A stretch of DNA of 64,000 nt, from positions 13,476,318 through 13,540,317 of the forward strand of contig NC_052396.1 in the NCBI RefSeq assembly GCF_009389715.1. The letters run 5' to 3'. Below the pieces are notes generated by a model that was not told where the DNA came from, searched no databases, and was given only the letters and a program-made list of their open reading frames with translations. Shown one piece after another: positions 4,661-46,571 of this stretch. Origin of the DNA: Phoenix dactylifera. Its lineage: Eukaryota > Streptophyta > Magnoliopsida > Arecales > Arecaceae. The number at the start of each line of letters is the position of its first letter. Within the stretch, counting starts at the first letter, position 1. The translations under genes were made by a program, and so were the position numbers.

Positions 4661-5978
4661 TGCCATTGGCATGGTGATGAGGATTCAAGGGAAGATAGTA
4701 GCATGGATCCAGGTGCCTTGAGCTTCAAGGACTTTCATCACTGTCACACTATCATTCGAAGGTGGATCAAGGGTGTAGCGCAAGGATACAATAGAAAGAT
4801 ATAGTACTGGATTATAGTAGAAAGCTAAGTCATGCCTACTCCTAGGATAAAAAAAAGTAAAACTAAGATAAAAGATACATATTCAATAGATTGATCATCA
4901 AAGGATCCATATACAAAATACAATTCCATTATTTATACTAAACTACAATAATTGTCCACTCTTGACGGTTGTTATTCACATCCTCCACTTCTAGCGGTTC
5001 TAGTAACTGACACTGGTTGCCTTCTCACTATTGAACGATCATTAGAATCCATTATCTGTCAAATCGATACTCATATTTATCGATCTTGATCTATCGTTCA
5101 TTGTTTTGACCTATATACCATTGGTCAGTGTTCCTTAATCGTCCTGCAACAAGATCTTCTGCGTCTTGGAACACCATCAAGGCCAATTTACTCATCCCTG
5201 TATTGTTGTTGATCATGACATTCGGCCTATTCATAGCTAAATCTTCATCTTTGAACTTGTCCCTCCATACTTGGAATTTATCACGATCCAACTCTATCAA
5301 GCCTGGTAAGGATCACGTGATTTTCACCTATTTGGACTTCATCCAATCGATCCACATGGCACTTCCTTTTAGCTACCATTTAAGCTATCGAGATAAGTGT
5401 AAACAATATTGCATTTCCATTTTTTATATAAATATTTATATTTAAATCTTATAGTAGTTAATATGACATGTATTACATAGCCATACCATTCTTTAGGCAT
5501 GTAACATGAAATATTAAAGTATATAACATTGAAACATCAAAAACAAACTCACAAATTCCTATTTTCTATTTAAAAGTAAATAAAACTTAAAATACTAAAA
5601 ACAAAAATTATTTTTTTTTTTGGGTGTACCAATATGGTTCAATATGGTACCTCTCCTACCGTACACAACCCAACACTAAGATTAGGAACCTAGAACAACA
5701 TTGCATAAGATAAGAATTTATTCAAGTAGATTTACTTAGACTAGAATGGACTATATTTAACTTGAATTTGAGTTTTGCTCAAATCCACACATCAACTTTA
5801 TTTAGATTCAAACATGATTAGGTGGAGATCCATAAGAAGGTTGTGCGTCCTCAAAGGAGACAAAATGGATAGCCTTTCAAAGAAGGCCCATCTCATATTT
5901 CTCTGTTCTTCTTTTAGTTAATAAACAAAGAAAGAAATATGCTTCCATCACTTTTTTTCTACTTCTCTGAGCATTAAG
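4661..5978. other. Repeat-derived region before the Copia element
   Basis: No intact gene. A short GGTACC-family patch lies at about 5620-5660 after a poly-T run. The rest is AT-rich, and no phospholipase D exon was seen here on the minus strand. Confidence 0.35.
5974..5978. repeat. Copia target-site duplication, left
   Basis: TTAAG immediately before the 5' LTR, matched by TTAAG at 11760-11764 after the 3' LTR. Five bases is normal for Ty1/copia integration. Confidence 0.9.
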
Positions 5979-6717
5979 TGTTGGAATATTTCAAAATTCC
6001 GAGTCTGCCCTTCTTTGTCTTTTGTCTTTTTGTCTAGTGTACTTTCTTTTAGTCCCACATTGGAAAGGAACAAAACTCAAAAGATCTTTATATAGTATTC
6101 AACCTTTTAACTTGGTGAAGCAAAGAAAGAAAGTAGCCCACGCGCGCATGAGCCCAATGGAGGTCCAAACCAAAATTGGCGAATCCGATCCGGAAACGTT
6201 TAACCGGGCGCGTTGCGATTATCACGCGCAGGGGGACCCCCCCCCCCCCCGCGGGTGTGGGCTTGAGTCAGGTTTCTTTTTGCCGTTTTATTTTTTGAAT
6301 TGTTTTGATAAAACGTCGCGTCTTTAAAACATCGCACCTCTTTCGTAAAACGACATGTCTTTTAAATACGCCTCTTCATTTCTTTTTAAACCCTATCAGA
6401 TCCGATAGAGTTAATCAATCAAAAAGCCTCTCTCTCTCACTGTTCCTCTGTTCTGTTCCCGAGAGGATACTCTCCTCTGTTCTGTTTCCGAGAGGATACT
6501 CTCCTCTGTTCTGAGCGCTTCTGGGCTGTTCGACAAGATCACTGCATCTGCGAGTGTGCGCTTGGAGTGATCCAGTTGTTGTATCCTGGAGGATAGGCCG
6601 CCATTACCTGCTACACCGAGATTCATTCTCCGAGGGGCGCGATCTATTCTTAAGGACAGTGAAATCACGCCTCAACTGATAAGTTCTTCCTTCTCTCCAT
6701 CTATCATTTTTCTTACA
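5979..6717 (+). repeat. Copia 5' LTR
   Basis: 739 bp, TG...CA ends. A TATA motif (TTATATAG, 6088-6095) would place transcription start, and so R, near 6115-6125. It contains about 155 bp (roughly 6178-6333, with a run of 13 Cs) that is absent from the 3' LTR. A 29-30 bp direct repeat around GAGAGGATACTCTC sits near 6460-6520. The bases at 6640-6654 are the exact reverse complement of 6720-6734, just past the LTR. Confidence 0.93.
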
Positions 6718-6736
6718 ATCTTAAGAATAGATCGGC
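6718..6736 (+). promoter_or_regulatory. Candidate primer-binding site with no tRNA-Met match
   Basis: Most plant copia elements have TGGTATCAGAGC directly after the 5' LTR, complementary to the 3' end of initiator tRNA-Met. Here the spot reads ATCTTAAGAATAGATCGGC. Bases 6720-6734 pair perfectly over 15 bp with 6640-6654 in the LTR. The primer is therefore unidentified: it could be an internal tRNA fragment or a self-derived RNA. Confidence 0.5.
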
Positions 6737-9700
6737 ATGGATTCTGCTATGATTACTGCTAGATCAATTCCTGATACTTCTAAAATTGAGAGTTTCAATG
6801 GTATGTATTTTAAGAGATGGCAAGGACGTGTTTATTCTGCATTGGATATGCTTAATTTTGCTCAGTATTTAAATCAGTCAAAACCGATAGAAGGGTCTGA
6901 AGATTTTGACACTAAATTCAAAGAGTGGGAACATGGAAATAAAATCTGTAGACACACAATTCTGAGTACACTGTCCAATGAACTTTTTGATGTCTACTGT
7001 TCATACAAAGAAGCTGCAGAAATTTGGGAAAATTTGAATAAAAAATATGTGTTAGAAGATGCTGGAGTACAGAAATATGCTATAGGAAATTTTCTGCACT
7101 TTCAAATGTCCGAGGATAGGGATGTGTCATCCCAAATACATGATTTTCATAGGTTAGTCACTGATCTTAAAAATGAAGATATAATGCTTCAAGAAGTTTT
7201 CCTAGCCGGCTGTTTGATTGAAAAATTACCTGAGTCTTGGAAAAATTATAAAAACAGCATGAAGCACAAAAGGAAACATATGAGTCTTGAAGATGTTATT
7301 GTTCATATTAGAATTGAAGAACAAAATCGAGTCAGAGACCGAGAACAATTGGCCAAGGAAATGACTTCCAAAGCCAATGTAATAGTCAGCAAACCAGATG
7401 GGTCTCGTTCAAAGTTCAAGAAGCCTTATCTCAAAAATGATAAGAAACCTAAGTTCCAAGGTCTTGGTTTTAAAAGAAAGGGAACTTGTTTTGTTTGTGG
7501 AAAACCTGGACATTATGCTAATCAATGCAGGTTTAGAAAAAGGAATGATATATCTGTTAAACCAAATGCTAACTTGGTAGAGACAGATATTATTGCAGCA
7601 GTTGTGTCTGAAACCAACATGGTTATGGCAGCAAAGGACTGGGTGGTAGATTCTGGGGCTACCAGACATATTTGTGGCAATAGGAGTGCATATACTTCCT
7701 ACACTCCATTAAATGAAGGCGAAGAACAAGTGTTCATGGGTGATTCGAGACCCTCGCCAGTGGTTGGCAAAGGAAAAGTACTCCTCAAGCTAACATCAGG
7801 AAAAGTCCTTTCCCTGAATGATGTGCTGCATGTTCCTAATATCCGTTGGAACTTAGTATCTGTATCTTTATTAGGAAAGGCTGGAATTAAAGTGTATTTT
7901 GAGTCTGATAAAATTGTAATGACTAAGAACAATGTTTTCATTGGGAAGGGTTATTGTAACCAGGGTTTATTTGTCTTGAATGTAACCGAAACTATGAATG
8001 AAAATGCATCATCTTTTGCTTATTTGATTGATTCTGTTGATGTATGGCATGGTAGATTAGGACATGTTAATTTTTCTTATATCAAGAAAATGAAAGACCT
8101 AGGCTTGTTAAATAATATTACCTTTGGAAATGTGAATGATAAATGTGAAGTGTGTGTAGAATCTAAATCTACTAAAAAGAGTCATAAGTCAATAGAAAGA
8201 GAAACTGAATTACTTGGATTAATACATTCTGATTTAGGAGATTTGAAAAACACTCCAACTAGAGGAGGAAAAAGATTTTACATAACTTTTATTGATGATT
8301 ATTCTAAATACACTAAGGTATATCTACTTAGGACTAAAGATGAAACTTTTAAAAAATTTCAGCAATATGTTACTGAAGTAGAAAATAAATTTAATAAGAA
8401 AATTAAAAGAATAAGGACTGATAGAGGAGGAGAATATGAGTATAATCTCTTCAATAAATTTTGTGAAGATAAAGGTATAATCCATGAGATTACCCCACCA
8501 TATTCTCCTGAATCTAATGGAGTTGCTGAACGTAAAAATAGAACTCTAAAAGAAATGATGAATGCTATGTTAATAAGCTCAGGAGTACCTCTTTATTTGT
8601 GGGGGGAAGCTATTCTCTCCGCTTGTCACATTCAAAATAGAATACCTTATAAGAAAATTGGTAAGACACCCTATGAGTTATGGGAAGGTCATGTACCTAA
8701 CCTTACATATCTTAAAGTATGGGGGTGTTTGGCCAAAGTTCTATTACCTGAACCAAAGAAAAGAAAGTTGGGACCTAAAACCTTTGATTGCTTATTTATT
8801 GATTATGCATTAAATAGTGCTGCTTATAGATTCTTGGTATTAAAATGTGAATCTAATATTATGGAACCTAACACTATAGTAGAATCTAAAAATGCTGATT
8901 TCTTTGAACATATCTTTCCTATGAAACTAGGTAAAGAAAAAATTGACTCTCAGTCTCATAATAAACAAGAAAAGGAGGCACATGAAAATTATGAAATTGA
9001 TTTAAGAAGAAGTAAAAGAACTAGAAAAGAGAAAAAATTTGGAAATGATTTTTACACCTTTCTTGTTGATAATGAACCTCAAACTTATAAAGAAGCAATA
9101 ACTTCAGCTGATGCACCTTTTTGGAAGGAGGCTATTAATAATGAAATAGAGTCTATTATGTCTAATCATACATGGACCTTAGTTGATTTGCCTCCAGGTG
9201 CTAAATCAATTGGTTGTAAGTGGATTTTTAAAAGAAAGTTAAAACCAGATAATTCAATTGATAAGTTTAAAGCAAGATTAGTAGCAAAAGGATACTCACA
9301 AAGAAAAGATATTGATTATTTTGACACCTTTGCACCAGTTTCTAGAATTTCATCTATTAGAGTACTCATTGCATTAGCATCCATTCATAATTTAGTAATT
9401 CACCAAATGGATGTAAAAACTGCATTCTTGAATGGAGAATTAGATGAAGAAATTTACATGGAACAACCTGAAGGTTGTATTGTTCCTGGTAATGAGCACA
9501 AAGTTTGTAAATTAGTAAAATCCTTATATGGATTAAAACAAGCACCTAAACAATGGCATGAAAAATTTGATAAAGTATTGGTATCTAATGGCTTTCTAAT
9601 TAATGAGGCTGATAAGTGTGTTTATAGTAAGGTTGTTAATAATGTTGTTGTGATCATATGTTTGTATGTTGATGATATGCTTATAATGGGAACTGATTTG

Positions 9701-11164: not shown

Positions 11165-11175
11165 ATGTGGGGGAT
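11165..11175 (+). promoter_or_regulatory. Copia polypurine tract
   Basis: ATGTGGGGGAT directly precedes the 3' LTR. It matches the usual purine-rich plus-strand primer position and form in plant copia elements. Confidence 0.8.
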
Positions 11176-11759
11176 TGTTGGAATATTTCAAAATTCCGAG
11201 TCTGCCCTTCTTTGTCTTTTGTCTTTTTGTCTAGTGTACTTTCTTTTAGTCCCACATTGGAAAGGAACAAAACTCAAAAGATCTTTATATAGTATTCAAC
11301 CTTTTAACTTGGTGAAGCAAAGAAAGAAAGTAGCCCACGCGCGCATGAGCCCAATGGAGGTCCAAACCAAAATTGGCAAATCTTTCGTAAAACGACATGT
11401 CTTTTAAATACGCCTCTTCATTTCTTTTTAAACCCTATCAGATCCGATAGAGTTAATCAATCAAAAAGCCTCTCTCTCTCACTGTTCCTCTGTTCTGTTC
11501 CCGAGAGGATACTCTCCTCTATTCTGTTTCCGAGAGGATACTCTCCTCTGTTCTGAGCGCTTCTGGGCTGTTCGACAAGATCACTGCATCTGCGAGTGTG
11601 CGCTTGGAGTGATCCAGTTGTTGTATCCTGGAGGATAGGCCGCCATTACCTGCTACACCGAGATTCATTCTCCGAGGGACGCGATCTATTCTTAAGGACA
11701 GTGAAATCACGCCTCAACTGATAAGTTCTTCCTTCTCTCCATCTATCATTTTTCTTACA
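11176..11759 (+). repeat. Copia 3' LTR
   Basis: 584 bp. It is the same as the 5' LTR except for lacking about 155 bp after AAAATTGGC and a few substitutions (CTCCTCTATTC for CTCCTCTGTTC, GAGGGACGC for GAGGGGCGC). The two LTRs are identical at integration, so the length change came later or by recombination. Confidence 0.93.
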
Positions 11760-11764
11760 TTAAG
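11760..11764. repeat. Copia target-site duplication, right
   Basis: TTAAG, the exact match of 5974-5978. Confidence 0.9.
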
Positions 11765-12091
11765 TTCATATCAAATGCAGTATTGTTGATCCCATTGGTA
11801 GTTGTTGCTCTTGTTAATTCCAGCTAAGTAACTCTTTGCTCTTCTGTCCCTCCTGCGTAATGTGATTCCTGTACTCTGTGGCTGTCGTGCTTTTTAATGC
11901 ATTTGTTCCCCAACCCCGCCCCCACCCACCAAAAGTTCTTTTTTTCTCCAAGGCATTATTCTATCGCAGGCATTGTATGCAACCGAAAACACAGGCATAA
12001 TTTCAAACAGCGCAAACTTATGTTAAAAGAAAAAAAAAAAAAAAAATCCGCCATGCGATAATGAGAGCATCCAAGAGCTGAAACGACTTAC
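11765..12091 (-). other. Start of PLD intron 1
   Basis: It begins on the minus strand with the donor GTAAGT at 12086-12091 and runs into the Copia element. It holds an A-run (12030-12046) and no further coding sequence. Confidence 0.6.
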
Positions 12092-13051
12092 CGTCTTGAA
12101 GAAGAGCTTGTCGTGGGAAGTCCTATCATCCCACACCAACAAGCACACCCGAACCCCCTCCTCCGACTTGTACTTGAGCAGCTCCCCCAATGTGAGCGCC
12201 TCGGCCATGGCCGGGATCCTCAGCGACCGTTCCCTCACCAGCTTCACCTTGTGGTAGATGGACCACCCCGCTATGTAAATCAAATGGTGCGCCTCCAGTA
12301 TCGCTTCGCATATATCCTCCCAGCACTTGTTATGCCGAAACACCGCCCCACCCTCCAATTCGATGTCGTACGGGAGGTCCCCTTGCCGGACATGGGCATC
12401 CTGGTAAAGCGTCAGCATCCCTCCCTTCCTCAAGGGGAAGTACGTGTCCCGGACCCCTCTCTTCTCGGGATCCCCCGGGATGCCGTTCCGGTACGCCGGA
12501 TTCTTCTCCACGGGCGTGAAACTCATCGAGACGCGGAGTGCCGAAGCCGGCCTCGGCGGCCGCCCGGAGGGGGCGATCACCGGGAACCAATCGTCGATCA
12601 GTTGGCCGGAGGCGATGCGGTCGGCGGGGACGGTGGCGGTGCCGATGAGCTGGGCGCCGAAGACGTCGCTGTCCTTGACCTCGAACTCGATGTGGCCGGC
12701 GCGGTGCGCGAGGAATAGCTTGAAGTGCTCGTTCCAGTGGGGTTCCAGGGAGTTGGGGATCACGCGGGTGCGGGCGAGGGTGTCTCTGGCGAGGATGACT
12801 TTGACGTAGGGGTCGCTGGTGATGGCCTTGGGTTTGGGTTGGAGGGGGAAGTGGGGACTCGTCTTCTTGCCCGTCCTGAACTCTTCTTCGCGATCGGTGC
12901 GGCGGCGGGTGGGGAGGGAGAGGCCGCAGGCGCCGAGGCAGCGGCGGATGCGCTCGGTGAACATGTCCATGTTGGGGAGGTCGCGGGCCTCGCGGATGTG
13001 GAGGTCCAGATCGCCGTGGAGGAGGAGGAGCCTCTCCGGGGTGGCATCCAT
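12092..13051 (-). CDS. PLDDELTA: Phospholipase D delta, exon 1 (partial gene)
   Basis: The exon encodes 320 residues of a C2-type plant phospholipase D, which hydrolyses membrane phospholipids to phosphatidic acid. Residues about 8-165 are the Ca2+/lipid-binding C2 domain (LLLHGDLDLHIREARDLPNM, TSDPYVKV, DSDVFGAQLIGTA). After it come conserved pre-catalytic blocks (YFPLRKGGMLTLYQDAH, CWEDICEAILEAHHLIYIAG, LLVWDDRTSHDKLFF). The order and wording fit the delta class best. The start is the only ATG before the C2 domain. The exon ends with a consensus donor (ACG then GTAAGT) in phase 0; the reading frame beyond it is intron. Both catalytic HKD motifs lie downstream of this point in the family, and I found no exon for them in positions 1-12091, where the Copia element and old repeats occupy the space. 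Either intron 1 exceeds 12 kb or the gene is truncated. Confidence 0.88.
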
Positions 13052-20089: not shown

Positions 20090-23000
20090 TGAGGAGGAAA
20101 GAGGGGGGATAGAGAGAATCTATGCATCTATTTCTAGAATTTAATTATTAAGTTATTTTAAAAACTTCCAGAAACCTTTAGATTCCTTGGATGAAAAGAT
20201 GACAGTACCAGACAAGTAATGAATCTTAAGACAAGACAATAATGCATAGCATTACAACATCTATAGTCGACTTCCAAGCACCAATCTCAGTGTGTGTTTA
20301 TCTAATTCACGAGAATTCATCTAGTGTGTGCACTGGAAGTTGAATAACTTTGGATAAAAATAACCCTAGCCAGTCAAGGCCCGGTCTTAAAAATACTAGG
20401 TTGAAACTTGAGTTCTGAATGGTGGAAAAGTTCATATATCGATATTAATCTCTGTCAGTTTACTGGAGGTAGATTCGACTCATATTATACTACAAAAAAA
20501 ACAGTATTATGTTAAATAATCTGTTATGTAAATGAAGCTGTTTCAAAGTCATTTCTGCTGAAGCAGGGTAAAGATGAGATGAATTATCTCTATGCACAAT
20601 TTGTTATTGTTTGACTTTCTTGTGTGGGTTTATCATGCAAAAAAAGACATGATAGAAACATATATTAGTTACAACAAATATATTGACAGATGGACATCCA
20701 GAATTAGAAGAAAAAGCCACAAGTTGGGAGCATCTATGACCATGTTTTTGTATTTATCCATTTTTGTAGATGAACAGATGCGTAAATTGTTTCTGACATA
20801 CATTAATAGATTTTAGAAGAAACTGACAGTGAATATAAATAACAATCATGATTAGACAAACAGTTTAAGAGCAGGATGACTATGCAAATTAACGGGCTTA
20901 GAGGAGAAATTACCCAATATGACCATGCAATGCTGTAAAGAAAAATCTGCAGAATTTTGAGAAAATTTCAGCAAGTCAAAATTCGGTAATAAGAGGCTAA
21001 TAATTAAAAAAAAATCAAATAGGAAAGAGGATGATCAAAAATGAAAGGAAATTACATGTGCACAACTTGCCAAGAGACCTATGTTAAGGAGTTTCTCCTC
21101 ACCCAACGTGGGAATTAATAAGTGCATCAGGAATAGCTGCAAAACCAACCGTTCTTAGATGAAAACTATTTCTAGTTAGCTTCTTGTCAATGCATGTAAC
21201 CATGCATGCACATGAGTAAATATGAAATCTTTACAGAAATTATACAAGCAAACAGTGTCAAACACCATCAAGAAAAATCATACCTGTGAGAAGGCTCCTG
21301 CAATCCCAAGGATCAGCAGCAGATCAGCAAATTGATCTTTGCTGAACTGAAACTGTGCTTTCAGGTAGTACTGTGTTGATATCAAACAAAAATTGGTAAG
21401 TAATCAGAACCTTAAAGACAGGCATGTAGAAATTAAACTTATACATGAAGGAATCTGCAGATCATAACTCCTGATTTATAAAAATATTCTCAAATTGAAG
21501 GTTGAAAAACATATGGAAAAAGAAAAACCTGCAGATGCAATGTACGTTGACTTCAATTTTTAGAAAGTTGAGTTGTTTCTCATTGAAAAACAAACTGAGA
21601 TTACCAAGGTATCTATTCATTCATAAATCAGTTACACAAACAAGGTTTCAATTATAGTTCAATATTTTTCTTAGAGTATCAGAAGTTGGCCTTTCATCCT
21701 TAACATCTACAGCTCATAAGATTAATTAGGACAAAGCCCACAAGCATGTGCATTAGGCTTTCACTTCAGTTGCTCAAATTGATGAGTTGGTATTCAGTTG
21801 AAACAGTAAATAGGGAAATGCAGATGAAAAGCTTGGCTTTGCACCCACCAATATACATAAAAGTCAAAGAGCCAAAAGAAGAGCAAAGCTCGGTCTATTC
21901 ATGCAATTATATCATTGGGGAAAAAATGGCATTCATGGATGGTAAACCTACTTATGATAAATTGCCCATGCTTACCAAGAATAGGGTATGTATTCTTGCA
22001 ATTATATCATAGGAAAAAAAAAATGACATTCAAGGATGGTAAACCTACTTACAATAAATTGCCCATAAATACAATTTGGCTATCTTGAGGTGCATTTTTG
22101 GATTAACTCCTGAAGTTGCTGTCCTAAACTAAAGGTGGGCAACGGGCCGTGCCGGGCCGGCCCGGCCCAGGCCCCCCGGGCCCAAAGACTAAACGGGCCG
22201 TGCCTGGCACGGCCCGTCCAGCACGGAAGGCCAGCCCGGCCCGGCCCCAGGCCCCTCTATTGGTGGGCTGGGCCGGGCACGGCACGCCACGGGCCGTGCC
22301 GGGCACGGCCCGTAACGGGCGCAAACGGGCCGTGCCAGGCACGGCCCGCAACGTCTCCAAACGGGCCGTGCCTGGCACGGCCCGTAACGGCTCCAGACGG
22401 GCCGTGCCAGGCACGGCCCGTCTGGAGAGGGGGGAGGAAAATAGCCGTTTCCAACGGCTATTTTCGTGAAAATGACCCTTTTACCCCTCCCAACAGTCCA
22501 ATAACGGCTGAATTGAGGGGTATTTTGGGAAAAAAAATTTTTGGGCTTCTATAAATAGCCCATTCCTCCCTCATTCTCACCATACCAAACCTCTCATTCT
22601 CTCCTTCTCTACTGCTATTATTTCTCTCTTCTAAAGTGCTCTTCTAGCAATTTAATTTTTAGTTCGTTCAAGTGCTACACAAGAGGAGGTTCCTGTTGAG
22701 AAGAGAAGGTCGCTTCTGTTGAGAGCACAAGAGGAAGCTCGGAATCTCGGCTCTGCCTCTGCCCTCCGACCCTCTACTCAATTCCTCCTTGCGGTTAGTT
22801 TTTATTTTTTGAATTAATCATAGATATGTCATCTTTTGAGGAAAGTCAGTTTGGCATTCCTGTTTCTGAGAGAGAAGAAACTAATCCCCAACCCCCTGTT
22901 CCTAGTTCCTCTAGAACTGGTGAACCGAGTGAAGGTCAAACCTCTTCTCGTAAGAGGACTAGTACTGTATGGAATGAATTTGATAGAGTTATGGTTGAGG

Positions 23001-26000
23001 GAGTCTGGAAAGCTAAATGTAAAAAATGTGCCAAACTTTATAGTTGTAGTAGTAGTGGGAGAACAGGGCATTTAAAAAGACATCAAGAGAGTCATAGGAT
23101 GCATGATTCTCATGCTCAAACTCAAAGTACCCTTAATATACAAGGAGAATTACTTGTAGGTAATTTTGCATATAATCATGAAAATCAAAGAAAAGCACTT
23201 GTAAAATGGATAGTTAAGGATGAATTACCTTTTAGTTTATGTGAATCTTTTAATTTTGAAGAATATGTTCAATTAAACCTACAACCTGCTTACAAAAGAA
23301 CTAGTAGGCGTACATTTAGAAGAGTAGCTATGACCAATTTTTTAGCAATGAAACAAAATTTAATTGAAACACTTTCTACTTTAAATGTAAAAATTTCATT
23401 AACTTCTGATATTTGGTCAGCATCTGTAGGTAGTAATTGTTTTATTGCCATTACTGCTCATTATATTGATAATGATTGGCAATTAAATAAACGTATTCTT
23501 GCTTTTCGTGCTTTTGATTTTCCACATTCTGGGCAACAAATTTCAAATATAATTTATCAAACTGCATGTTCATATAATATTAATGATAAAATTATGTCTA
23601 TTACTTTTGATAATGCATCTAATAATAATTCTGCTGTTGTATTATTAAAAGACTCATTGCATCCCATATTAGATGGAAATTTACTGCATATTAGATGTGC
23701 ATGTCATATCTTAAATCTTTCTGTTCAAGCTGGCATGGGCATGATTCAAGATGTGATTTCAAAAATTAGAAATGCAGTTTCTTTTATTCATGCTTCTAGA
23801 TCAAGACTTCAAGAATTTAAGGAATTATGCATAAATCATGGTAAACGTTTTAAAAAATTTAAACTTGATGTAATTACTCGTTGGAACTCCACATATAGCA
23901 TGATACATGATGCATACCCATATAAAAATTTATTAAGTGCATATATTAATGATCGTGGATTAGGATTTACATTGACTGAAACTGATTGAAATAAAGAAAA
24001 AATTTTGGAAGATTTTTTGCTTAGTTTTTATAATGCTACCAATGTTCTTTCTGGTATTTATTACCCTACTTCATGTTCATTTTTACAACAAGCATATATA
24101 ATTAGTCAAAAATTTGCAGAACATAGATATGATGATGTTTTAATGCCTATTATTGACCTAATGGAATCTAAATGGAATGAGTATTGGGACAGGATATGTC
24201 CTATGCATAACTTAGCTGCTGTATTTGATCCTAGAGTTAAATTAAATGGCGTGCTAATTTTACTTGATGCATACTCTGAAAATATGAATCAAGATGCTGA
24301 ATCTGCTAAAGATGAGGTAAAAAAACTTCTTTATGATATTTATGCTATATATGATGAAAAAATTCGTGGATCTAGAACACAAATACAAACCTCTATTTCT
24401 CCTTCTAGTAGTTCTCGTTCGTCATCTATTTTTTCATTCATTGCACAGAGAAGACACACACATACTTCAAGTTCCTCTTCATCTTCTTCATCTTTAAGTA
24501 GTGAACTAGAATTTTATTTACGAAATGATCTTCATTCTGCATATGATGAAAATCAAATAGAGAATCTAGATGTATTATCTTGGTGGAAGAGTGTTAGAAA
24601 TCAATATCCTGTTATGTCTGCAATTGCACGCGATATTTTAGCTGTGCCGATGTCCACGGTAGCATCGGAATCCGCTTTTAGTGCCGGTCGGCGTGTTCTT
24701 GACGAAAAGAGAAGTAGGATGACGGGCGAAACGGTGGAGATGCTTCTCTGCTTCAAGGATTGGCTGGATGCTGAGGCAAGACTTCAAGATAAAGGTGGAC
24801 ATAATACAACATCCTCTGATGATGATGATACAAACACTACTGAAGACTGAAGACTGAAGAGTGAAGAGTGAATATTGATTCACTGAATCACTGATGATTA
24901 GTAAGATTTCTTAATTTTTTATAATTGTACATTTTTATTGTATTCTGGAGGTCAGACCAAGGTCCAAACCTCGGCCCTTTCTTAGTTTCTTATTGTATTC
25001 TAGAGGTCAGACCAAGGTCCAAACCTCCCTTCATGTACCATTTTGATTTAAATTAATAAACTGGTAGGGGTCTATGCCAAACCCCCCACCATTAAGGTGG
25101 CTTTATATTCATAAATCATAAATTCTTAGTGTTCAATATTTATTAATTTATTAAAAAAATTTATGAAGCATTAATTTTTATCGGGCCGAGCCGGGCCCAG
25201 GCCCGGACCGTGCCAGGCCCACGTGCCAGCCCGGCCCAGGCCCTTATGGGCCGTGCCGTGCTGGCCCGCGGGCCGTGCCGTGCTTGGCCCGCGGGCCTAG
25301 ACCGGGCCGTGCCGGCCCAGGCCCGAAGCGGGCCGTGCCAGGCACGGCCCGCTGGCCAGGACCCTCTAGCCCAGCACGGCCCTCTCAAAGGGGCCGTGCC
25401 AGGCACGGCCCGGCACTGTAGCTGGCGGGCCGTGCCAGGCACGGCCCGCTTCGTGCCGTGCCGTGCCGGGCCGTGGGCGGCCCGGCCCAGTGCCCATCTC
25501 TATCCTAAACTCTTATCAGAGCTTAATTTATGCTTATCAACAGCTACCTTGCCAAATTAATGGTAATAAGGAGGTAAGTTGGGACTTGGGACCTTTAATT
25601 TATCATAAATTTACAAGTTCTAATATGTACATTTTCTTAGCCAGCTCTTGTTAACCACCAGAATCTTAGAAAATAGATGTTGTCTATTTGGAAGAGAGGA
25701 GAGGGTGTTGATGAAGACATTTTTTGTGAGAGAGAGAAGAGGGATGGAAAGAGAGGGGAACATAGAGGGAAAGATAGAAGGTAAGAGAGAAATTATCATA
25801 AAATTGTTGGAAACTGTAAAATGATACACATGTTCGAAGATCATCGTTTAGCCTTAAAATGACCCATCACAAAAATGTCTTTTTTGGAAATTGTGGAATG
25901 TAGTTGCATCATCTAATTTAAAGCTTCAAATCATGAATATCTCATTATCAGTCATTCAAAGTCAGAGGAACTTCCATTGCTTCAATGAACTGAGGTCCTG

Positions 26001-43257: not shown

Positions 43258-43819
43258 TAGAGATGGGCACTGGGCCGGGCCGCCCACGGCCCGGCACGGC
43301 ACGGCACGAAGCGGGCCGTGCCTGGCACGGCCCGCCAGCTACAGTGCCGGGCCGTGCCTGGCACGGCCCCTTTGATAGGGCCGTGCTGGGCTAGAGGTTC
43401 CTGGCAAGCGGGCCGTGCCAGGCACGGCCCGCTGCGGGCCTGGGCCGGGCTGGCACGCGAGCCTGGCACGGTCCGGGCCTGGGCCCGGCTCGGCCCGATA
43501 AATTTTTTTTAATAAATTAATAAATATTGAACACTAAGAAATCTTGATTTATGAATATAAAGCCACCTTAATGGTGGGGGGTTTGGCATAGACCCCTACC
43601 AGTTTATTAATTTAAATCAAAATGGTACATGAAGGGAGGTTTGGACCTTGGTGTGACCTCTAGATTCTATAATACAATAAGAAACTAAGAAAGGGCCGAG
43701 GTTTGGACCTTGGTCTGACCTCCAGAATACAATAAAAATGTACAATTATAAAAAATTAAGAAATCTTACTAATCATCAGTGATTCAGTGAATCAGTATTC
43801 AGTCTTCAGTCTTCAGTCT

Positions 43820-45844
43820 TCAGTCTTCAGTAGTGTTTGTATCATCATCATCAGAGGATGTTGTATTATGTCCACCTTTATCTTGAAGTCTTGCCTCAGC
43901 ATCCAGCCAATCCTTGAAGCAGAGAAGCATCTCCACCGTTTCGCCCGTCATCCTACTTCTCTTTTCGTCAAGAACACGCCGACCTGCACTAAAAGCGGAT
44001 TCCGATGCTACCGTGGACATCGGCACAGCTAAAATATCGCGTGCAATTGCAGATATAACAGGATATTGATTTCTAACACTCTTCCACCAAGATAATACAT
44101 CTAGATTCTCTATTTGATTTTCATCATATGCAGACTGAAGATCATTTCGTAAATAAAATTCTAGTTCACTACTTAAAGATGAAGAAGATGAAGAGGAACT
44201 TGAAGCATGTGTGTGTCTTCTCTGTGCAATGAATGAAAAAATAGATGACGAACGAGAACTACTAGAAGGAGGAATAGAGGTTTGTATTTGTGTTCTAGAT
44301 CCACGAATTTTTTCATCATATATAGCATAAATATCATAAAGAAGTTGTCTTACCTCATCTTTAGCAGATTCAGCATCTTGATTCATATTTTCAGCGTATG
44401 CATCAAGTAAAATTAGCACGCCATTTAATTTAACTCTAGGATCAAATACAGCAGCTAAGTTATGCATAGGACATATCCTGTCCCAATACCCATTCCATTT
44501 AGATTCCATTAGGTGAATAATAGGCATTAAAACATCATCATATCTATGTTCTGCAAATTTTTGACTAATTATATATGCTTGTTGTAAAAATGAACATGAA
44601 GTAGGGTAATAAATACCAGAAAGAACATTGGTAGCATTATAAAAACTAAGCAAAAAATCTTCCAAAATTTTTTCTTTATTCCAATCAGTTTCAGTCAATG
44701 TAAATCCTAATCCACGATCATTAATATATGCACTTAATAAATTTTTATATGGGTATGCATCATGTATCATGCTATATGTGGAGTTCCAACGAGTAATTAC
44801 ATCAAGTTTAAATTTTTTAAAACGTTTACCATGATTTATGCATAATTCCTTAAATTCTTGAAGTCTTGATCTAGAAGCATGAATAAAAGAAACTGCATTT
44901 CTAATTTTTGAAATCACATCTTGAATCATGCCCATGCCAGCTTGAACAGAAAGATTTAAGATATGACATGCACATCTAATATGCAGTAAATTTCCATCTA
45001 ATATGGGATGCAATGAGTCTTTTAATAATACAACAGCAGAATTATTATTAGATGCATTATCAAAAGTAATAGACATAATTTTATCATTAATATTATATGA
45101 ACATGCAGTTTGATAAATTATATTTGAAATTTGTTGCCCAGAATGTGGAAAATCAAAAGCACGAAAAGCAAGAATACGTTTATTTAATTGCCAATCATTA
45201 TCAATATAATGAGCAGTAATGGCAATAAAACAATTACTACCTACAGATGCTGACCAAATATCAGAAGTTAATGAAATTTTTACATTTAAAGTAGAAAGTG
45301 TTTCAATTAAATTTTGTTTCATTGCTAAAAAATTGGTCATAGCTACTCTTCTAAATGTACGCCTACTAGTTCTTTTGTAAGCAGGTTGTAGGTTTAATTG
45401 AACATATTCTTCAAAATTAAAAGATTCACATAAACTAAAAGGTAATTCATCCTTAACTATCCATTTTACAAGTGCTTTTCTTTGATTTTCATGATTATAT
45501 GCAAAATTACCTACAAGTAATCCCCCTTGTATATTAAGGCTACTTTGAGTTTGAGCATGAGAATCATGCATCCTATGACTCTCTTGATGTCTTTTTAAAT
45601 GCCCTGTTCCCCCACTACTACTACAACTATAAAGTTTGGCACATTTTTTACATTTAGCTTTCCAGACTCCCTCAACCATAACTCTATCAAATTCATTCCA
45701 TACAGTACTAGTCCTCTTACGAGAAGAGGTTTGACCTTCACTCGGTTCACCAGTTCTAGAGGAACTAGGAACAGGGGGTTGGGGATTAGTTTCTTCTCCC
45801 TCAGAAACAGGAATGCCAAACTGACTTTCCTCAAAAGATGACAT
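43820..45844 (-). CDS. hAT transposase (RICESLEEPER/Ac type)
   Basis: 674 residues, one exon. It would cut and move the element and its relatives. Residues about 46-95 form a BED zinc finger (CKKCAKLY ... HLKRHQESH) preceded by a Ser/Thr-rich leader; residues about 140-480 are the RNase-H-like core with LTSDIWSASVGSN, ITFDNASNNN, RCACHILNLSVQAG and DVITRWNSTYSM; residues about 590-660 are the hATC dimerisation domain (WWKSVRNQYPVISAIARDIL, VASESAFSAGRRVLDEKRSR). A Ser-rich spacer (about 555-580) precedes hATC. The tail is acidic. Trp is present where copy 1 has TGA. A TATA box lies 270 bases upstream. The gene looks functional by sequence. Confidence 0.95.
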   Translation of the reverse strand: MSSFEESQFGIPVSEGEETNPQPPVPSSSRTGEPSEGQTSSRKRTSTVWNEFDRVMVEGVWKAKCKKCAKLYSCSSSGGTGHLKRHQESHRMHDSHAQTQSSLNIQGGLLVGNFAYNHENQRKALVKWIVKDELPFSLCESFNFEEYVQLNLQPAYKRTSRRTFRRVAMTNFLAMKQNLIETLSTLNVKISLTSDIWSASVGSNCFIAITAHYIDNDWQLNKRILAFRAFDFPHSGQQISNIIYQTACSYNINDKIMSITFDNASNNNSAVVLLKDSLHPILDGNLLHIRCACHILNLSVQAGMGMIQDVISKIRNAVSFIHASRSRLQEFKELCINHGKRFKKFKLDVITRWNSTYSMIHDAYPYKNLLSAYINDRGLGFTLTETDWNKEKILEDFLLSFYNATNVLSGIYYPTSCSFLQQAYIISQKFAEHRYDDVLMPIIHLMESKWNGYWDRICPMHNLAAVFDPRVKLNGVLILLDAYAENMNQDAESAKDEVRQLLYDIYAIYDEKIRGSRTQIQTSIPPSSSSRSSSIFSFIAQRRHTHASSSSSSSSSLSSELEFYLRNDLQSAYDENQIENLDVLSWWKSVRNQYPVISAIARDILAVPMSTVASESAFSAGRRVLDEKRSRMTGETVEMLLCFKDWLDAEARLQDKGGHNTTSSDDDDTNTTED

Positions 45845-46112
45845 ATCTATGATTAATTCAAAAAATAAAAACTAACCGCAAGGAGGAATTGAGTAGAGGG
45901 TCGGAGGGCAGAGGCAGAGCCGAGATTCCGAGCTTCCTCTTGTGCTCTCAACAGAAGCGACCTTCTCTTCTCAACAGGAACCTCCTCTTGTGTAGCACTT
46001 GAACAAACTAAAAATTAAATTGCTAGAAGAGCACTGTAGAGGAGAGAAATAATAGCAGTAGAGAAGGAGAGAATGAGAGGTTTGGTGTGGTGAGAATGAG
46101 GGAGGAATGGGC

Positions 46113-46120
46113 TATTTATA
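46113..46120 (-). promoter_or_regulatory. hAT transposase TATA box, copy 2
   Basis: TATAAATA read on the minus strand, at the same distance from the ATG as in copy 1. Confidence 0.65.
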
Positions 46121-46571
46121 GAAGCCCAAAATTTTTTTTTTCCAAAATACCCCTCCATTCAGCCGTTATTGGACTGTTGGGAGGGGTAAAATCGACTTTT
46201 CCCGAAAATAGCCGTTGGAAACGGCTATTTTCCCTCCCCCTCTCCAGACGGGCCGTGCCAGGCACGGCCCGTCTGGAGCCGTTACGGGCCGTGCCAGGCA
46301 CGGCCCGTCTGGAGACGTTGCGGGCCATGCCTGGCACGGCCCGTTTGCGCCCGTTACGGGCCGTGCCTGGCACGGCCCGTGCCGTGCCGTGCCCGGCCCG
46401 GCCCACCAATAGAGGGGCCGGGGGCCGGGCCGGGCTGGCCTTCCGTGCTTCACGGGCCGTGCCAGGCACGGCCCGCTTCATAAGCGGGCCGTGCCAGGCA
46501 CGGCCCGCTTAGAATTTGGGCCCGGGGGGGCTGGGCCGGGCCGGCCCGGCACGGCCCGTTGCCCAACTCTA

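Follow-up and report, generated by a model that had tools for sequence, protein, structure and literature searches.

Probable self-priming of a Ty1/copia element

The Ty1/copia element inserted in a 64,000-nucleotide stretch of the Phoenix dactylifera genome (NCBI RefSeq assembly GCF_009389715.1, contig NC_052396.1, positions 13,476,318 to 13,540,317 of the forward strand; this whole stretch is called the window) probably uses a U5 segment of its own RNA to prime minus-strand DNA synthesis, a judgement that is drawn from sequence comparison and covers self-priming as such, not each step of it. As the initial annotation had pointed out, the segment at 6640-6654 (CGATCTATTCTTAAG) in the 5' long terminal repeat (LTR) is the exact reverse complement of 6720-6734, which starts two bases beyond the LTR end, and the usual tRNA-Met site is missing, since the window contains no match to TGGTATCAGAGC even when one mismatch is allowed. 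The 15-nt complement cannot be lengthened at either end, and the 15-mer with up to three mismatches finds three places in the window, namely both arms and the U5 of the 3' LTR (11682-11696). Self-priming of this kind, including the idea of the initial annotation, is already predicted in print: according to passages of a survey (PMC6317226), it was predicted for 12% of surveyed plant LTR elements, including the TAR lineage with Houba and Osr-1. The window element shows the sequence features of this TAR type of self-primed Ty1/copia, as it lacks a tRNA-Met 3'-end site and its primer-binding site complements its own 5' LTR.

A chance match in one element is extremely improbable. Although the window holds only one such element, 1500 dinucleotide shuffles of the LTR never reached 15 nt, their best exact complementarity with the 20 nt following the LTR being 11 nt (four shuffles), and chance was rejected on this ground; moreover, the complement recurs in 36 loci of the same family and in six other families. 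A control with 884 slices of 20 nt from the element interior (step 5) likewise gave a longest complement of 11 nt. Exact copies of the 15-mer are also present in 14 viral contigs, counted as matches without inspection of the contigs themselves, and are taken as chance in a very large collection; no relatives of the element were found in the viral contig collection.

Covariation of primer segment and site among families

Relatives in the host genome were drawn from listings, with 131 loci scored of 11365 candidates in a gag search and 40 of 226 in another search. The window element's family is called A, and the other Copia families of the host genome are B1, B2, C, D, E, and F. The gag of 40 loci (L068-L107) is 36-43% identical to that of the window element, while the reverse transcriptase (RT) domain of the window element shares 64-70% identity with those of the six other families over the main aligned piece. 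TGGTATCAGAGC is absent from all of these 40 relatives, and the window element has no site of the tRNA-primed Copia kind, complementary to a tRNA 3' end and starting with TGG. The six other families share the anatomy of family A with different letters at the site, each complementary to its own LTR (Table 1). An exact arm complement of at least 12 nt was found in 28 of the 40 loci, including the rearranged L089, a family C locus that has an inversion between the arms and was nevertheless counted; the remaining 12 have shorter or imperfect arm matches, or none readable (L106).

With one representative for each of the seven families, the duplex of primer segment and site has a mean energy of -20.8 kcal/mol with the own partner versus -7.0 with foreign partners, and the true family assignment is the best of 5040. 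The spacer between LTR and site is 2 nt in six of the seven families and 3 nt in E, and the distance from primer segment to site is 63-161 nt in the seven representatives. As well, GA stands directly 3' of the primer segment in 68 of the 74 loci used for the mismatch count below. What speaks against self-priming here is that the own partner comes first in just six of seven rows, the B2 primer pairing better with the B1 site.

The arms might instead form a structural or regulatory element for packaging, dimer formation or translation control, with a tRNA fragment or other RNA acting as primer. Only 2 nt lie between the site and the start codon, and structured leaders are common among LTR elements, both of which would suit such a role; we nevertheless consider it unlikely, because the complement sits at the primer-site position with the nearly constant spacer, the site changes along with its own LTR in every family, a tRNA would need to match seven different sites, and the distance between site and gag start differs greatly between B1 and B2.

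Table 1. Primer segments, primer-binding sites and P1 strands of the seven families.
Family	Primer arm	Site	P1 strands (5'/3')	Remark
A	CGATCTATTCTTAAG		CAGTTG/CAACTG	family of the window element
B1	GAAATCTGTCTTAAG	CTTAAGACAGATTTC	AGATCA/TGATCT
B2	TTTGTCTTAAG	CTTAAGACAAA	ACCG/CGGT	arm match 11 nt; P1 weak
C	GAAATCTACTTCAAG	CTTGAAGTAGATTTC	GCTG/CAGC	P1 has more pairs
D	AATATTCGTTTGTGA	TCACAAACGAATATT	AAAATAGTG/CACTGTTTT	one G-U in P1
E	AATAATTGTTTGAAA	TTTCAAACAATTATT	AGAGCAGT/ACTGCTCT
F	AATCTCTTTCAAA	TTTGAAAGAGATT	CGGTCCG/CGGACCG

Several loci have arrangements of their own. Family A forms a tandem array of LTR and interior at C14:6006572-6027956 with a period of about 5.17 kb, and a second one (L062, C3:15502129-15506050), whose repeat unit of about 900 bp comprises the LTR end, the primer site and the start of gag. 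Locus L057 (C1312:400-2189) has the same insertion with the same left flank as the window locus on a second contig, which is probably the other haplotype. In family C, L097 carries a second stretch resembling a primer-binding site, TTGAAGTAGA, within the LTR, on the downstream side of the primer domain, as though the LTR had absorbed an earlier LTR end.

Working length of the primer

Mismatches between site and own U5 arm were counted in 74 loci (36 of A, 16 of B1, 5 of B2, 10 of C, 2 of D, 3 of E, and 2 of F), in a 15-nt frame set by the analyst and with arms tolerated up to four letters from the family reference, so that badly decayed copies are missed. The arrays L062 and L063 were each counted once and the inverted L089 was included, while L015-L022 (same places, other extents), L066, L067, L105, and L106 were left out, as were L025, L045, L046, L048, L049, L050, and L053 (truncated or arm pair unreadable). 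With the site numbered from the LTR outwards, 16 of 814 cells are mismatched at positions 1-11, compared with 64 of 296 at positions 12-15. The exact 15-nt match of the initial annotation is real, but about 11 nt seem to matter rather than 15, and its proposal of a self-derived primer is still the best reading in that the arms co-vary across families, while within families positions 12-15 often do not. The primer of Tf1 is 11 nt long, and the pairing of about 11 nt is alike in this respect.

Position 12 weighs against self-priming, as it is mismatched in 13 of 36 family A loci with the U5 arm unchanged. Copies with this mismatch show at least eight different left flanks (L024, L027, L028, L029, L030, L033, L035, and L036), which argues that it survived several rounds of insertion. 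This leaves two explanations: selection maintains pairing over only about 11 bases, or each cycle copies just about 11 bases anew from the primer. According to passages of a previous study (PMC7472051), Ty1 and Ty3 inherit the primer site strictly, which would favor selection if applicable here.

A predicted three-way junction around the primer segment

The U5 region is predicted to fold into a three-way junction, in which stem P1 closes immediately outside the conserved left-hand TTGTATC and the right-hand GCCT, P2 is the primer segment paired with an anti-primer strand that begins inside TTGTATC, and P3 is a small hairpin 3' of the primer. The initial annotation had considered a single stem; its arms are complementary, but more than one stem is predicted, and the anti-primer strand competes for the primer segment. 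The complete junction appears in 5 of 11 single-copy folds, those of the window copy, both C copies, E, and F. The letters of P1 vary between families while the pairing stays (Table 1), and the true assignment of P1 strands is the best of 5040; for P2, three of the 5040 assignments do as well as the true one, the true one included. Within family A, one P1 pair is mostly A-U but G-C in L051, L055, and L064, and all six P1 pairs are kept in 27 of 33 loci with a readable anchor.

Five A copies and one F copy served to train a covariance model, which was then searched against 57 analyst-chosen sources (255 kb). Outside the training set, it matched all 6 B1, all 4 B2 and all 8 C loci at the expected place with E-values of 8e-7 to 6e-4, and also locus L105 (E-value 0.002); within the window it matched the two LTRs only, and it had no match in any of the 14 viral contigs. 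No match was given in L109, which is cut before its U5, and L052 reached just an E-value of 0.11. In the model-fitted alignment of 28 distinct rows, 91.8% of cells are paired versus 75.5% in shuffles, cells changed on both sides number 138 versus 51, and pairing falls to 43% when the partners are slid by one base. MAFFT alignments of all families misplaced the 3' half of the fold and were kept out of these counts.

Several observations weigh against a fold shared by all families. Six of the 11 single folds (A L052, A L058, B1, B2, D, and G) give parts of the junction or another fold, the own partner is best in six of seven rows for P1 and five of seven for P2, and B2 is weak in both P1 and primer match. 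The full P1 is missing in 6 of the 33 family A loci (L028, L039, L043, L058, L061, and L062). With filters on, the model misses family D (L086, L102, and L111) and family E (L087, L093, L094, and L112), and with filters off these are marginal, the right place being on top in L086, L094, L102, and L087 (E-values 0.01-0.08) and one of two near-equal matches in L093. Moreover, the alignment behind the pairing counts was fitted to the structure and so leans towards it, and one of five measures, the number of further pair types, does not exceed that of the shuffles, 103 of 500 of which attain the observed value.

Two Copia elements with a tRNA-Met site made up a small control set. One, decayed, is that of L020 (with L114 and L120); the other is that of L117, a Trichormus-bin contig and a partial control with just 165 nt ahead of its site. 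Between the L020 site and the 600 nt preceding it, complementarity extends over 7 nt at most, and the model gave only a noise-level match there (E-value 5.5), the strong match in this locus being a neighboring family A copy; no model match was found near the site of L117. Five contigs (L115-L119) in a genome contig collection, filed under bacterial assemblies, encode Copia polyproteins and look like eukaryotic contamination, and L115 has no complement of at least 10 nt in the stretch searched.

Three other structures were considered and rejected. An unusually stable whole leader was not supported (201 nt, z -0.51, 56 of 200 shuffles equally stable). A GAGGC/GCCTC stem around the primer was dropped after folding, which placed P1 outside TTGTATC and GCCT instead. 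A GalEa-like palindrome was discarded because CTTAAG, palindromic in A, B1, and B2, is absent from C, D, E, and F. Rfam 15 gave three matches in 5900-7000 of the window, all far below gathering scores and none over 6572-6679. In the open-access literature, taken without supplements, no RNA fold for such elements was found described in titles or passages; the conserved primer-holding three-way junction with its competing anti-primer strand, together with an apparently internal primer position, looks new.

In the computed leader ensemble, pairing of the primer with its site prevails in B1, C, D, and F (0.82-0.99), whereas in A, B2, and E the upstream strand is the main partner (0.55-0.76); in A, the site still accounts for 0.31. 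The leader may thus be read as a near-balanced two-state switch.

Primer position and proposed mechanism

A pattern search predicted TATA boxes 228 nt (B1, C) and 367 nt (B2) upstream of the primer segment, and the patterns used picked no TATA box in D and E. P1 and the anti-primer strand appear to be part of the RNA, because both, located upstream of the primer, co-vary with partners further downstream. The primer segment seems, on these predictions, to be internal to the transcript, unlike in Tf1. A strict Tf1 arrangement, in which the transcript starts at the primer segment, is quite unlikely in view of these upstream boxes and co-varying strands, although the match has a Tf1-like length. 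The place of the match is that described in passages on Tf1-type elements (PMC10085805, PMC4600332), and family F counts against an internal position, since among its several TATA candidates TATAAG stands 9 nt before the primer segment and fits an adjacent start.

In the proposed self-priming, the transcript would start upstream, leaving the primer segment internal, and the leader would act as a switch in which the primer strand pairs either with the anti-primer strand or with the primer site. The RNA would be cut right after the primer segment (after 6654), by the RNase H of the element as in Tf1 or by another activity, and about 11 paired nucleotides at the new 3' end would prime synthesis that crosses the 2-nt spacer and enters the LTR end; P1 might keep the cut fragment on the template. 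Synthesis would stop at 6655, and the short cDNA would move to the same sequence in the 3' LTR. Such a transfer in cis requires that polyadenylation occur downstream of 6655, so that the whole repeat is still present in the 3' LTR.

The initial annotation had argued that a cut at 6654 favors priming from a second RNA, which would not be forced if poly(A) lies downstream of 6655 and is just one solution. The same segment might also prime in trans, supplied by a second RNA molecule or by its 3' LTR copy; this is a sub-type of self-priming and does not exclude the scheme above. It would leave the 5' repeat on the template and could draw on the identical sequence in the 3' LTR, but it would be unnecessary with such a poly(A) site, and P1 and the short distance to the site favor pairing within one RNA, so that we regard it as possible but doubtful.

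Beyond self-priming itself, we tentatively propose, with somewhat less than even confidence, that the fold is a dedicated primer-release domain, in which an internal primer held by the anti-primer strand is cut at the junction and its new 3' end handed to the site. The cutter would be the RT-RNase H, a host double-strand nuclease, or the RNA itself, and the working repeat region would extend only from the cut to the poly(A) site. Such a domain would make the self-primer internal and switch-controlled, in contrast to Tf1, whose primer lies at the 5' end.

Comparison with known priming systems

The families described here are likened to the TAR lineage by primer-site type, not by phylogeny. Passages of PMC6317226 describe TAR elements as Ty1/copia without a tRNA-Met site, with a primer predicted from their own 5' LTR via transcript cleavage, as here; unlike here, those passages describe no RNA fold, anti-primer strand or working length. 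In Tf1 and Sushi, according to passages of PMC10085805 and PMC4600332, a site adjoining the LTR also pairs with the own mRNA, with further duplexes around the primer (pretzel structure). However, Tf1 and Sushi are Ty3/gypsy chromoviruses, whereas the window element has the copia domain order and RVT_2, and its primer segment is seemingly internal and held by an anti-primer strand.

Half-tRNA-primed Copia elements, among them Drosophila copia, differ in that the site here complements the own LTR. Osser, Bryco, and Bianca are members of this type that, in passages of PMC6317226, likewise lack the usual tRNA 3'-end site. Fungal GalEa Copia elements also have no tRNA site and carry a conserved sequence, a hairpin in GalEa, at the primer-site position (passages of PMC5445492); that hairpin is a local palindrome for which those passages give no U5 complement, whereas the U5 complement is the defining feature here.

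Anatomy of the element and neighboring features

The insertion was assigned to Ty1/copia from the LTR-LTR alignment and the sequence (Table 2): it has LTRs, a 5-bp target duplication with TTAAG on both sides, and gag and an integrase preceding RT in a single polyprotein, the Pfam domains of the 1302-aa frame following the copia order of gag, integrase, and RVT_2. The insertion is young, as the LTRs differ by just 2 substitutions in 584 aligned bases and by 155 bp in length. The extra 155 bp of the 5' LTR (6181-6338) include a C run and are absent from the 3' LTR (compare 11378-11381).

Table 2. Features of the Ty1/copia element in the window.
Feature	Positions	Strand	Basis or remark
Target-site duplication TTAAG, left copy	5974..5978		right copy 11760-11764
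5' LTR, 739 bp	5979..6717	+	LTR-LTR alignment
Candidate TATA box TATATAG	6089..6095	+	read from sequence
Second candidate TATA box TTTAAATA	6361-6368		read from sequence
Predicted three-way-junction RNA domain (P1, P2, P3)	6572..6679	+	covariance model match (window copy is a training member); fold
Stem P1, 5' strand CAGTTG	6573..6578	+	flanked 3' by conserved TTGTATC (6579-6585)
Anti-primer strand, 5' strand of P2	6584..6601	+
Putative primer segment in U5, 3' strand of P2	6640..6654	+	possible cut after 6654
Hairpin P3 (GTGAAATCAC)	6659..6668	+
Stem P1, 3' strand CAACTG	6673..6678	+	directly after GCCT (6669-6672)
Putative primer-binding site	6720..6734	+	complement of 6640-6654, after 2-nt spacer AT (6718-6719)
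gag-pol frame of Ty1/copia, 1302 aa	6737..10645	+
Polypurine tract GTGGGGGAT ahead of 3' LTR	11167..11175	+	labelled by position
3' LTR, 584 bp	11176..11759	+	own domain copy at 11614-11721

Just downstream of the element, a 342-aa frame on the reverse strand (12023-13051) by eye resembles the beginning of a C2-domain phospholipase D. The window also contains two near-identical transposon copies in opposite orientation, at 22130-25502 (+) and 43258-46571 (-), with GC-rich CGGGCCGTGCC repeats near both ends. Their frames, at 22826-24850 (split in two) and 43820-45844 (674 aa), look hAT-like by eye.

Implications

The published prediction of self-priming in plant Copia elements, drawn from a sequence match, gains from this work a covariation among families, an estimate of about 11 nt for the working length, and a specific conserved RNA fold. 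It also opens to test how a primer could be cut from the middle of a transcript without loss of the repeat needed for strand transfer. If self-priming is right, these elements would not need a host tRNA primer, and tRNA fragments acting on tRNA primer sites should miss them.
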